A DNA stretch of 37,205 bases, taken from NCBI RefSeq assembly GCF_000834015.1, contig NZ_JXQI01000033.1:1-37205 (forward strand), in the 5' to 3' direction. Origin of the DNA: Prevotella pectinovora. Lineage in GTDB: Bacteria > Bacteroidota > Bacteroidia > Bacteroidales > Bacteroidaceae. Below the pieces are notes generated by a model. The model did not search any database and was not told the origin of the DNA. It worked only from the letters and a program-made list of their open reading frames with translations. Below are positions 24,753-27,722 of the stretch, piece by piece (position 1 is the first letter of the stretch; every line of letters begins with the position of its first letter). Both the position numbers and the translations under genes were made by a program.

Positions 24753-25355
24753 TCAGTCAAAATGTTTCAGCCTTGCTATATATTTGCCGAGAATGTCAAA
24801 CTCGATGTTTACCACTGTTCCCACCTGTATATCGCAGAAATTCGTGTTTTCCCTTGTGTATGGTATGATGGCGACAGTGAAGGTATTGTCGGTTGGTTCG
24901 CAAACCGTGAGCGACACTCCGTTCACCGTTACGCTACCTTTGTCCACTGTAAAATATCCACGCTGTGCCATCTCTTTGTTGTTCTTGTATTCAAAGGTGA
25001 AATATGTGCTGCCGTCGGCATCTCTCATGTCGATGCACTTTGCTGTCTCGTCAACATGTCCTTGCACTATATGTCCGTCGAGTCTTCCATTCATTATCAT
25101 CGACCTCTCCACGTTCACTTTGTCTCCCACTTCGAGTAGTGAGAGATTCGTTCTGTCAAGTGTCTCTTTCATAGCCGTCACGGTGTATGTATTGTCCTTT
25201 ATCTCCACTACGGTCAGACATACACCGTTGTGAGATACGCTTTGGTCTATTTTGAGTTCGTTTACAAATGAGCATGTGAGTGTAAAATCGATATTGCCAC
25301 CATATCTGTGTATGTTGGTCACAGTAGCGAATTCTTCTACTATTCCTGAGAACAT
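24753..25355 (-). CDS. ribE: Riboflavin synthase alpha chain
   Basis: Catalyses dismutation of two 6,7-dimethyl-8-ribityllumazine molecules to riboflavin, the last step of the pathway. Two tandem lumazine-binding repeats are visible: residues 1-95 (MFSGIVEEFATV, SHNGVCLTVVEI) and 96-195 (GHIVQGHVDETA, VTVNGVSLTVCEP). Length 200 aa is normal. No other riboflavin gene is adjacent. Upstream, within 300 bp, are a strong hairpin (25393-25433) and the compact RNA at 25441-25649; I see no promoter between that RNA and the ATG, so ribE may be expressed by read-through of those terminator-like structures. Confidence 0.95.
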   Translation of the reverse strand: MFSGIVEEFATVTNIHRYGGNIDFTLTCSFVNELKIDQSVSHNGVCLTVVEIKDNTYTVTAMKETLDRTNLSLLEVGDKVNVERSMIMNGRLDGHIVQGHVDETAKCIDMRDADGSTYFTFEYKNNKEMAQRGYFTVDKGSVTVNGVSLTVCEPTDNTFTVAIIPYTRENTNFCDIQVGTVVNIEFDILGKYIARLKHFD

Positions 25356-25392
25356 ATTTATAAAAGTTTTTATGATTTAAAATTTCAAGAAG

Positions 25393-25433
25393 AAAAGCGG
25401 TGTTTCGTGTCTTGACGAAGTGCCACCGCTTTT
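25393..25433 (-). terminator. Strong two-part hairpin in front of ribE
   Basis: On the minus strand AAAAGCGGTG pairs perfectly over 10 bp with CACCGCTTTT (25424-25433 with 25393-25402). Inside it TTCGT pairs with ACGAA (25415-25419 with 25404-25408) around CAAGAC. The 3' side runs into TTTTCTTCTT. It stands 37 bp before the ribE ATG, so it is either the second terminator of the upstream RNA or an attenuator controlling ribE. Confidence 0.7.
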
Positions 25434-25440
25434 GTATTTT

Positions 25441-25649
25441 AAAAAAAGACCGCACCGATGATGTGATGAAACTCCGAGCTAGAAAGATTTGAGAGTTCTC
25501 CGCCTTTGTAATCCACCGGCTTTACAGCTATCCTCATTGCTGGGGAATGTGGCCCGCCATTAGCAAAAGAAATCATCTCGGTTTTCGTTTTATTATTGAT
25601 GAGTATCCCGATCGAACCGATACGGTCTATTTCTTTTGTATTTCTTTCG
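25441..25649 (-). ncRNA. Structured RNA of about 200 nt upstream of ribE, family unknown
   Basis: Candidate non-coding RNA. Transcription should begin near 25649 from the promoter at 25655-25685. Closing helix P1 pairs 25616-25627 with 25448-25459 over 12 bp (three G-U) and is followed at once by seven U (25441-25447). Going inward there is a symmetric 8 x 8 loop. P2 pairs 25601-25607 with 25468-25474 (one mismatch). A one-sided A-rich bulge of about 19 nt follows. P3 pairs 25577-25581 with 25474-25478 and P4 pairs 25570-25574 with 25486-25490. Two local hairpins are UUGCU/AGCAA (25537-25566) and UGUAA/UUACA (25507-25526). The rod shape and size resemble 6S RNA; the position suggests a ribE leader. 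It does not fit the FMN riboswitch consensus I know. The frame that is open here starts with a TTG inside the -7 box and is not a gene. Confidence 0.6.
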
Positions 25650-25654
25650 TGTTG

Positions 25655-25685
25655 CAAAGATAATGCTATTTTCTCTTATTGCAAA
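25655..25685 (-). promoter_or_regulatory. Consensus promoter of the ribE-upstream RNA
   Basis: Minus-strand TTTG (25682-25685) and TATCTTTG (25655-25662) are exactly 19 bp apart, followed by CA. It is the best full match to the Bacteroidota promoter in the window, implying strong transcription. Confidence 0.85.
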
Positions 25686-25764
25686 TTATTTGCATTAAAT
25701 TTTGCTTTTCATTTACAACAAGACATGAAAATTGTTTTGTCTTCTCTCATGATACACTTATGTT

Positions 25765-26433
25765 TCAATCGCATTTCATCTTTGTTTTTTTAGTCGTGTT
25801 TTCTTGCTTTACATTATCTTTGTTTGTCTTGTTTCCTTGTTTGAGTTTTTTCTTGCATCCTGCAATCATCTTCTGTATCTGAATCACTCTTGCGCTTTTG
25901 TCTTCCGGATATCCGAATTGTTCATAAAATGATAATGCGGAGTCTAGACAATCGAGAGTGTTCTGCCATTCTTTGCTGTTCATATAGCAGTAGGCTAGCC
26001 TGAAGAACACATCGCCTTTTTCTTTGCCATAGCATACGGTAAGCGTTTTCTCATATAGCGGTATGGCCCTGTCGTATTCTTCGAGCAGGAAATGGCTTTC
26101 TGCATCTGCAAAGAAGTACACGCTTCTTTCGTGTGGGGCATAAACTTCCAGGTCTGCTATATACGGGTCAAGGTATCTGCAGGCTTTATCATATTCCCAG
26201 GTATAATAGAAGCATAATCCAATATACGCCTTGAACCTGGGGTTCAGCTTGTATCTTTTATCGAGGCGCGTCAGTATATTTCGCGCCTCGATGTATTTGC
26301 CGCTGCTGAAGTATTCCAGTGCTATTGTCAGCTGTTCTTTGTCAGGCATGCCATTGACTGTTTGTCCTGGCAGTCTTGTGTTGCAGACAGCAGTGATGAA
26401 CATGAAGATGATCAGAGTTCTGATGCCTCTCAT
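25765..26433 (-). CDS. Exported TPR protein coupled to the M64 peptidase
   Basis: Predicted periplasmic or envelope protein-interaction scaffold. Residues 1-24 are a signal peptide (MRGIRTLIIFMFITAVCN...PGQ). Several tetratricopeptide-like helical pairs follow from about 30 to 185, for example IALEYFSSGKYIEARNILTR, EEYDRAIPLYEKTL and KGDVFFRLAYCYMNSKEWQN. The C-terminal 30 residues are very Lys/Asn/Thr-rich. The ATG overlaps the stop of the M64 gene by 4 bp (ATGA), so the two are translationally coupled and probably act together. 222 aa. No specific partner can be named. Confidence 0.8.
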   Translation of the reverse strand: MRGIRTLIIFMFITAVCNTRLPGQTVNGMPDKEQLTIALEYFSSGKYIEARNILTRLDKRYKLNPRFKAYIGLCFYYTWEYDKACRYLDPYIADLEVYAPHERSVYFFADAESHFLLEEYDRAIPLYEKTLTVCYGKEKGDVFFRLAYCYMNSKEWQNTLDCLDSALSFYEQFGYPEDKSARVIQIQKMIAGCKKKLKQGNKTNKDNVKQENTTKKTKMKCD

Positions 26434-27722
26434 TCTCCAGTATAGAATTTAATTAGTTTTGTGAGAGCGTTTTTGCATACGATGCAGAATTCCTTGCAGG
26501 CGTTCGTTCTCATACGGCAGTCCTGCACCCCTCTGTATACACCTTTGGTCCTGTATCCAGCTCCTTCAAAGTATCCCACTTTGTTTTTTGCCTTCTTTTC
26601 GTCTTTTGTCTCAGGTGTAGGTATCGGAGTTCCTTTCTCTATGAGGCTTTCCCATTTGCCTTTGAAGTCGGCAAGGGTGGTGATATTGGCCTCCCATGGT
26701 TCCACGTCGAGAGGATACATCGGAATCTCTTCCCAATCGTAGGCGTATTCATCTGCGAGTCCTGCGAAGCTGTGTCCGAACTCGTGTACGATGACTGGCT
26801 TGAATGATTTGTGTCCTGTGGAACTCAGGTTATAGTAGTTCAGTATACCTCCTCCGCCATAAACATCGGTGTTTACCAATATGATAATATGTTCGTATGG
26901 AGTACCAGCTAGCCAGTCGTGTACCTTTTTCAGGTTCAGTGTCGTAAGGTATCTCTCACTGTGGAAAGTGTCGAAGTTGGATCCCAATGCAGTGTTCTTC
27001 CATATGCCCTTGGACGGTACACTCGTCCCGCTCTCTTCTGATACCGACTTCACAGCAATGACATTGAATCTGTCTTTGTATTCCAAGAATGGTTCGTGAG
27101 CGAAGATTGCGTCAGTCGCAATCTTGACGTCATTGATGTATTTCTCCATTTCGGTTTCTGTATATCCTTCTGCAAGGAAGGCAATGTTGATGCAGTTTGA
27201 GATGTCTGCAGCCTTGTGAATGACGTCGTATGGCGTAGGGTGACTGCCTTTTTTGCTTATCAGCACGTCTTTGGGGGCAATGGTCTCAGTGATTGAAGCC
27301 ACGGTTTCTCTCCTGTTGTTCTTCAGTTTGATGGTCACTTCGGCGGAATCTTTAGGCATAGGCATGAGGATGACATTTTCAAACGATTTGTTTGATGTCC
27401 TGGCCTCGTCGTATGTCTGCCATTCCTGGAAGAGGGTAGAGAGGGAGTTTCTGTAAATCACCTTTCCTGTCTTGTGGTCTCTCATTTCAAATTGAGCGTT
27501 TCCCTCCACCGGAAACTCTCCGAGTCTTGTCTTTCTTCCATACCATCCTGGAATGGAATTCATGTTGTCCACGAAGATATGCTGCTCGTTGGCGTTACCT
27601 CCGAAGATACAGTTTATTCTCAGGGTGTTTTCTGTGAAATACTTGTTGAAGTCTTGTGCCTTCAATGATGTCGTCTGGCATCCAAGAGCCACGACTGAGA
27701 GTAATAATAGCTTTTTGATCAT
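26430..27722 (-). CDS. Secreted M64 (IgA-peptidase-like) metallopeptidase
   Basis: Zinc peptidase of family M64, typical of gut Bacteroidales. Residues 1-22 are a signal peptide ending SLKAQ. Residues 23-150 form the M64 N-terminal beta domain (RINCIFGGNANEQHIFVDN). The catalytic domain contains NIAFLAEGYTETEM and the zinc motif VIVHEFGHSFAGLADEY (about 310-326), an HExxH with the following LADEY as in the family. One M64 member is known to cleave IgA, but the substrate here is unknown. 430 aa. Its start overlaps the folK stop by 4 bp and its stop overlaps the TPR gene by 4 bp. Confidence 0.92.
   Translation of the reverse strand: MIKKLLLLSVVALGCQTTSLKAQDFNKYFTENTLRINCIFGGNANEQHIFVDNMNSIPGWYGRKTRLGEFPVEGNAQFEMRDHKTGKVIYRNSLSTLFQEWQTYDEARTSNKSFENVILMPMPKDSAEVTIKLKNNRRETVASITETIAPKDVLISKKGSHPTPYDVIHKAADISNCINIAFLAEGYTETEMEKYINDVKIATDAIFAHEPFLEYKDRFNVIAVKSVSEESGTSVPSKGIWKNTALGSNFDTFHSERYLTTLNLKKVHDWLAGTPYEHIIILVNTDVYGGGGILNYYNLSSTGHKSFKPVIVHEFGHSFAGLADEYAYDWEEIPMYPLDVEPWEANITTLADFKGKWESLIEKGTPIPTPETKDEKKAKNKVGYFEGAGYRTKGVYRGVQDCRMRTNACKEFCIVCKNALTKLIKFYTGE

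Follow-up and report, generated by a model that had tools for sequence, protein, structure and literature searches.

The RNA encoded upstream of ribE (riboflavin synthase) in Prevotella pectinovora is likely the 6S RNA of the cell, and read-through from the 6S promoter likely accounts for ribE transcription in Prevotella. The window, the whole stretch of 37,205 nucleotides analysed here, carries the RNA on the minus strand, 86 nt upstream of ribE and in the same orientation. To judge from its sequence, it represents the 6S RNA of Bacteroidales, a small RNA that is already known and predicted to restrain RNA polymerase.

The RNA upstream of ribE matches the Bacteroidales-1 family

The initial annotation had described a possibly new RNA and proposed a search of Rfam with Infernal. 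This search returned a full-length match to the known family RF01693 (Bacteroidales-1) at 25627–25442 of the minus strand (model positions 1–179 of 179, 146.8 bits versus a gathering score of 60, E 5e-25), so the RNA is not new. It is the sole above-cut-off Rfam match across the window, and Rfam describes the family as "6S-Bacteroidales RNA suggested". The conserved blocks and the middle helices of RF01693 are identical in kind in the window RNA, which itself shows no difference to the family. Because of the low E-value and the covarying closing helix among relatives (see below), the RNA is no chance feature. The finding is thereby settled as a known housekeeping RNA, and the other suggestion of the initial annotation, a 6S-like RNA of Bacteroidota, is borne out by the RF01693 match, the family-wide presence, and a published 6S RNA of Bacteroides.

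The second-best Rfam reading of the stretch is 6S-Flavo (RF01685), full length but weak, with 24.9 bits at a cut-off of 85. The generic 6S model (RF00013) had no match in the P. pectinovora genome at E 0.01 with the stricter Infernal filters, and RF01693 occurs there in one copy, leaving the window RNA as the only 6S candidate found in the genome sequence. A T-box candidate was rejected (16.8 bits versus a cut-off of 93), and the whole window has neither a tRNA nor a tmRNA match.

Of 101 sampled genomes of the same taxonomic family, 98 carry RF01693 (73 of the 74 of good quality), as a single copy in each except genome G065. There, three different copies (loci L142, L143, and L144) lie on three contigs, one of them with ribE downstream; G065 looks like mixed bins. 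Among 247 genomes of the phylum, searched with the stricter Infernal filters at the loss of some weak matches, RF01693 was found in 8 (3 above cut-off), 6S-Flavo in 30 (12 above cut-off), and RF00013 in 44 (none above cut-off). All 44 genomes with an RF00013 match belong to the set from the same phylum and none to that from the same class.

Table 1. Features of the 6S–ribE region, listed in the direction of transcription
Feature	Position	Strand	Remarks
-33 element TTTG	25682..25685	-	exact TTTG-N19-TATCTTTG match spanning 25655-25685
-7 element TATCTTTG (TAnnTTTG)	25655..25662	-	read from sequence; 19-nt spacer to TTTG
Predicted unstructured 5' end of transcript	25628..25650	-	putative start near 25650, from the -7 box
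6S-type RNA, RF01693 full length	25442..25627	-	146.8 bits
Closing helix P1, 5' arm	25616..25627	-	12 bp with 25459-25448; covariation
Helix P2, 5' arm	25601..25611	-	pairs with 25474-25464; 92.6% of cells paired
Central bubble, A-rich 5' side	25581..25600	-	unpaired; conserved ACUCAUCAA runs into bubble
Helix P4, 5' arm	25558..25573	-	pairs with 25508-25495; in Rfam structure
Helix P5, 5' arm	25549..25552	-	pairs with 25516-25513; 99.6% of cells paired
Helix P5, 3' arm	25513..25516	-	covariation counts
Helix P4, 3' arm	25495..25508	-	Rfam structure and covariation
Central bubble, 3' side, conserved CUCAAAUC	25479..25494	-	aligns with 6S-Flavo consensus CCccAAaCuUGUU
Helix P2, 3' arm	25464..25474	-	pairing counts in 68 + 45 sequences
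Closing helix P1, 3' arm	25448..25459	-	U7 directly after, 25447-25441
Putative terminator: hairpin + T tract between RNA and ribE	25393..25433	-	-16.4 kcal/mol, z -5.40 (25391-25435)
ribE, riboflavin synthase	24753..25355	-	NF006767 218.2 bits (cut-off 155); TIGR00187 191.1 (156.6)

The closing helix covaries in relatives

The structure that we tested combines the middle helices of the Rfam structure with the added helices P1, P2, and P3. Whereas the Rfam structure line of RF01693 leaves P1 and P2 unpaired, both are paired in the structure used here. The main alignment holds 68 sequences of <90% identity, selected from a family set of 100 that comprises the window and 99 relatives. In this alignment, 86.3% of cells were paired, compared with 77.3% after shuffling of partners and 40–48% in slid versions, over which the structure is favored by its partial derivation from the same conserved sequences. 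Two-sided changes amounted to 377 in the whole structure, versus 110 ± 12 in the shuffled controls. We repeated the analysis with 45 ribE-linked sequences, of which 44 come from named records (best 80 of 573 ribE loci). Here, 84.9% of cells were paired (80.5% shuffled and 39–52% slid), with 122 two-sided changes versus 48 ± 9.

All 12 pairs of P1 show two-sided changes, and they are formed in 78–96% of the 68 sequences; in the ribE-linked set, 11 of 12 pairs do so, with 79.6% of cells paired. The initial annotation had called for covariation in relatives, which is clear in P1 and in P4 (10 of 12 pairs in the 68 sequences) and weaker in P2 (4 of 10) and P3 (2 of 4). P5 has two-sided changes in three of its four pairs. 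In the 45 ribE-linked sequences, P2 shows them in a single pair of 10, where C-G is replaced by G-C in 9 sequences. Counting against this helix, 25605 and 25470 fail to pair in 32 of the 68 and 42 of the 45 sequences. P3, which would narrow the central bubble, is weak: three of its pairs fail to form in 8–11 of the 68 sequences, and in the ribE-linked set only 74.4% of cells are paired, with two-sided changes in three of four pairs.

The 12-bp closing helix that the initial annotation had drawn (25627–25616 with 25459–25448) thus covaries in relatives, and the run of seven U directly after it (25447–25441) and the A-rich one-sided bulge (25600–25581) were recovered as well. The symmetric 8 × 8 loop is absent from the conserved structure, and in the 68 sequences, pairing in the two apical mini-hairpins reaches no more than 77.0% and 50.3% of cells.

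In a custom covariation test with a tree-based null on 99 distinct sequences, the ten top pairs all fell into the P1, P4, and P5 stems, one of them one base off the P4 register used here, and the two best exceeded all values from 40 null alignments. Independently of any alignment, the first 12 nt of the RNA find a mean of 10.2 partners in its own last 24 nt, versus 7.8 after shuffling and 9.1 with the ends of other species. Folding of the single sequence was unremarkable (z -0.72 for 25442–25649 and z -0.46 for 25441–25627); the minimum-energy fold keeps P1 and loses P2. RNAalifold retained P1, P4, and P5, but not P2 and P3. The local pairs that it gave at 20–22/50–52 and 181–183/206–208 were rejected, as they show no two-sided changes; P2 is preferred over them because it does have such changes.

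By its predicted fold, the RNA has the shape of a 6S RNA, with ∼180–200 nt, a rod closed by a terminal helix, and a central bubble, and it carries the conserved middle helices of RF01693 as P4 and P5. Our analysis adds covariation support for closing helices that are omitted from the Rfam structure.

A predicted Bacteroidota-type promoter precedes the RNA

The promoter proposed in the initial annotation (TTTG, 19 nt, and TATCTTTG) is present at 25685–25682 and 25662–25655, and the pair fits the Bacteroides promoter consensus as given in PMC7366714. Its rating as the best promoter of the window was too strong, as it is one of 6 exact TTTG-N17–22-TAnnTTTG sites in the window, where 1.49 are expected. 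A sigma-70 scan gave 2 sites versus 1.6 expected, nothing useful for promoters of the Bacteroidota type.

The TAnnTTTG box recurs ≤45 nt upstream of 70 of 100 family copies (controls: 45 of 2000 shuffled sequences and 68 of 2000 random places), leaving 30 copies without it in these 45 nt. Within ∼60 nt upstream of the RNA, it is found at 42 of 44 named loci (best 80 of 573 ribE loci) and at 39 of 44 loci within the genus. As read from the sequence, the window RNA has the predicted housekeeping promoter of a 6S gene.

In some genera (loci L070, L081, L124, L125, L132, L133, and L134), the RNA closely follows a coding end that reads like that of ribosomal protein L20, and the 70 nt ahead of the RNA contain no exact promoter box. 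At these loci, the RNA may be processed out of a longer transcript.

Bacteroidales-1 and 6S-Flavo are homologous by sequence

We built a covariance model (R1) from the 68 family sequences only, the E-values of which are rough. R1 matches 29 of 30 6S-Flavo loci over its full length and in the same position (E between 7e-12 and 1.3e-4), missing L255; of ten fetched RF00013 loci, it matched none. Run blind on the 247 phylum genomes, with 11 candidates scored per genome, R1 matched 14: three family members including the window, eight at the 6S-Flavo place, G175 and G293 (both without a 6S-Flavo match), and, weakly, G328 (E 0.028). Of the 30 genomes with a 6S-Flavo match, 22 escaped this search. 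In G112, G152, and G194, both Rfam families match one place, RF01693 with 38–41 bits and thus below cut-off.

In the alignment, the window RNA and 6S-Flavo share the landmarks ACUCA-CA ... CAAA ... GGAGUUU. The window score for RF01685 lies far below the cut-off, which makes the RNA a homologue and not a member of 6S-Flavo. On these sequence comparisons, Bacteroidales-1 and 6S-Flavo are homologous, which ties the two families through direct homology. Places in genomes of family f9, of the same class (L264 in G175; L044 and L045 in G210 and G293), were matched by R1 or weakly by RF01693 (30–36 bits), with no 6S-Flavo match at E 0.01. These loci are possibly 6S RNAs beyond the reach of either Rfam model.

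Could Bacteroidales-1 be a structured RNA with another function in trans? Rfam grades the 6S reading as "suggested", RF00013 has no match, and the table of the 2010 discovery paper carries a "?" for Bacteroidales-1 under cis-regulation and switch (PMC2864571). However, the same paper counts 6S-Flavo, the homologue, among RNAs with a function of a known class; the RNA is a closed rod with a covarying terminal helix; and a 6S RNA with product RNAs is reported in Bacteroides thetaiotaomicron (PMC7366714). We therefore regard another function in trans as highly improbable. The B. thetaiotaomicron RNA, which is presumably RF01693, was detected by dRNA-seq with two product classes, pRNA and pRNA*, and that paper cites an earlier prediction (Wehner et al. 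2014). A 6S RNA is also among the RNAs detected in a flavobacterium, according to PMC9723704.

The position before ribE is mainly a trait of the genus

Among 99 family copies, ribE lies downstream of 6, of which 5 are from the same genus and 1 is on a G065 contig; it follows the RNA in all five other same-genus genomes of this sample. For another 81 copies, ≥1000 nt of downstream sequence was covered and the fetched stretch contains no ribE; for the remaining 12, the downstream sequence is shorter. Because ribE follows the RNA in few family copies, mostly of the same genus, the link is mainly a genus trait.

For the genus itself, we sampled 60 genomes, 53 of them with ribE, and examined 49 of the 52 besides the window (leaving out G345, G376, and G387). 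The RNA stands directly upstream of ribE on the same strand at 45 of 49 loci, with L268, L269, L299, and L316 as exceptions. At L299 (G366), an end-clipped RNA match lies at 2239–2301 downstream of ribE on the opposite strand (20 bits, E 0.0011). In G386 and G389, both of the Segatella copri type, the RNA is located away from ribE. Among the named ribE loci (best 80 of 573), 44 have the RNA upstream, with 43 of 44 gaps within 402 nt and a median of 56.5 nt over the 44. The named set overlaps with the set of Prevotella loci from the genus (L146 and L268), so that the counts are not additive.

Two loci titled Thermoguttaceae (L203 and L222) have a ribE 74–75% identical to that of the window and are probably misbinned contigs. 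Upstream of the RNA in the window, the region 25765–27722 (minus strand) encodes a 222-amino acid protein with weak, below-cut-off matches of the TPR type and a 430-amino acid protein with no NCBIfam match.

The 86-nt distance on the same strand and the order kept at 45 of 49 loci in the genus are also what one would see with a riboflavin- or FMN-sensing ribE leader, that is, a riboswitch of an undescribed kind. Such a leader is hardly credible, given that ribE follows only 6 of 99 family copies, with none in the fetched stretch of 81 copies, and that in two genomes of the genus the RNA and ribE lie at separate places under separate promoters. Moreover, the FMN riboswitch model (RF00050) gave no match up to E 10 within 25300–25800 and none genome-wide at E 0.1, whereas 7 of 14 control genomes do match. 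The initial annotation, which could not fit the FMN consensus, was right in this respect; its undescribed leader controlling riboflavin synthase was wrong as a general function, in view of the 6 of 99 copies and the missing FMN element.

What may be new is the neighborhood, with the RNA placed before ribE: among the open-licence papers listed on 6S RNA in connection with Prevotella or riboflavin synthase, no title or opening of an abstract mentions this arrangement.

Probable read-through from the 6S promoter into ribE in Prevotella

Between RNA and ribE, an exact TAnnTTTG box is found in none of 43 named gaps (best 80 of 573), when L220 (gap of 1430) is set aside and ≥4 nt are required between the end of the box and the ATG; dropping this spacing rule and including L220 gives 1 of 44. 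The box is likewise absent from all 44 gaps in the genus set (L283 was dropped, as the start pattern missed it) and from the seven gaps of the window and six ribE-linked relatives. Among 35 named ribE loci without a linked RNA (again within the best 80 of 573; 36 minus L161, which begins at ribE), the box lies within 60 nt at 13 and within 100 nt at 18, and length-matched trials on these loci found it in 449 of 1505. With one mismatch allowed, box-like sites occur at 10–12 of 43 linked versus 28–31 of 35 unlinked loci (best 80 of 573), a comparison that is confounded by ancestry, as only L146 and L150 of the 35 are titled Prevotella or Segatella. Since ribE lacks an exact promoter box of its own where it directly follows the RNA, we regard read-through transcription of ribE from the 6S promoter as likely in Prevotella.

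In G386 and G389, where the two genes are apart, ribE has a full TTTG-N20-TATCTTTG promoter, and the distant RNA has its own promoter and a downstream hairpin, which is followed by a T run in G386.

The RNA might also be a 6S RNA whose place before ribE is neutral, with ribE served by a promoter of its own in a form other than TAnnTTTG. The box-like sites with one mismatch in 10–12 of 43 named gaps (best 80 of 573) would agree with this, as would terminator-like hairpins in the gap of the window and in 7 of 43 named gaps (best 80 of 573). L299, L316, and L150, which have no RNA upstream of ribE, also have no TAnnTTTG box before it. However, exact boxes in 0 of 43 named and 0 of 44 genus gaps contrast with 18 of 35 within 100 nt of unlinked ribE (named loci: best 80 of 573), and gaps of down to 15–40 nt leave little room for a promoter; 15 of 43 named gaps (best 80 of 573) measure ≤40 nt. 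Altogether, we consider a neutral position rather unlikely and favor read-through.

Where a hairpin and T tract stand in the gap, as in the window and at 7 of 43 named loci, read-through would be partial. A scan for hairpins followed by T downstream of the RNA was positive for 29 of 98 copies versus 16 of 490 shuffled sequences, and omits the hairpin of the window itself because of its interrupted stem.

We lean toward a more specific arrangement, in which the 6S gene of Prevotella is transcribed together with ribE as a single unit, the former promoter of ribE is lost, and the output of the synthase is tied to 6S synthesis and the growth state. This would be an independent counterpart of ssrS-ygfA, in a genus whose representative studied here lacks a detectable FMN riboswitch. 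The initial annotation had the RNA as one that "happens to precede" ribE. The order is confirmed; the wording understates the link, as the RNA is probably the 5' part of the ribE transcript in Prevotella.

Proposed mechanism and comparison with known 6S systems

In the mechanism that we propose, the RNA would imitate an open promoter by folding into a closed rod and, by analogy with other 6S RNAs, would be bound by the housekeeping RNA polymerase holoenzyme. A short product RNA would then be templated by the 5' side of the central bubble (ACUCAUCAA), and its synthesis by the polymerase would release the 6S RNA. In Prevotella, transcription from the 6S promoter would read through into ribE, and the 6S RNA would either end at its own terminus or be cut out of a joint 6S–ribE transcript.

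6S RNAs in general share the size, the closed rod, and the central bubble with the window RNA, of which the same action is expected. In contrast to general 6S RNA, the window RNA comes without an RF00013 match in its genome and has a promoter of the Bacteroidota type. The arrangement with ribE resembles that of ssrS-ygfA in Escherichia coli, where a gene of vitamin metabolism also follows the 6S gene. There, the dicistronic transcript (6S-FAU1) is processed to 6S RNA, according to PMC7641849. The two differ in the downstream gene, which is ygfA in E. coli and ribE here, and the read-through in Prevotella is inferred only. If the read-through unit holds true, the coupling of a global regulator to a vitamin gene arose separately in Proteobacteria and in Prevotella.
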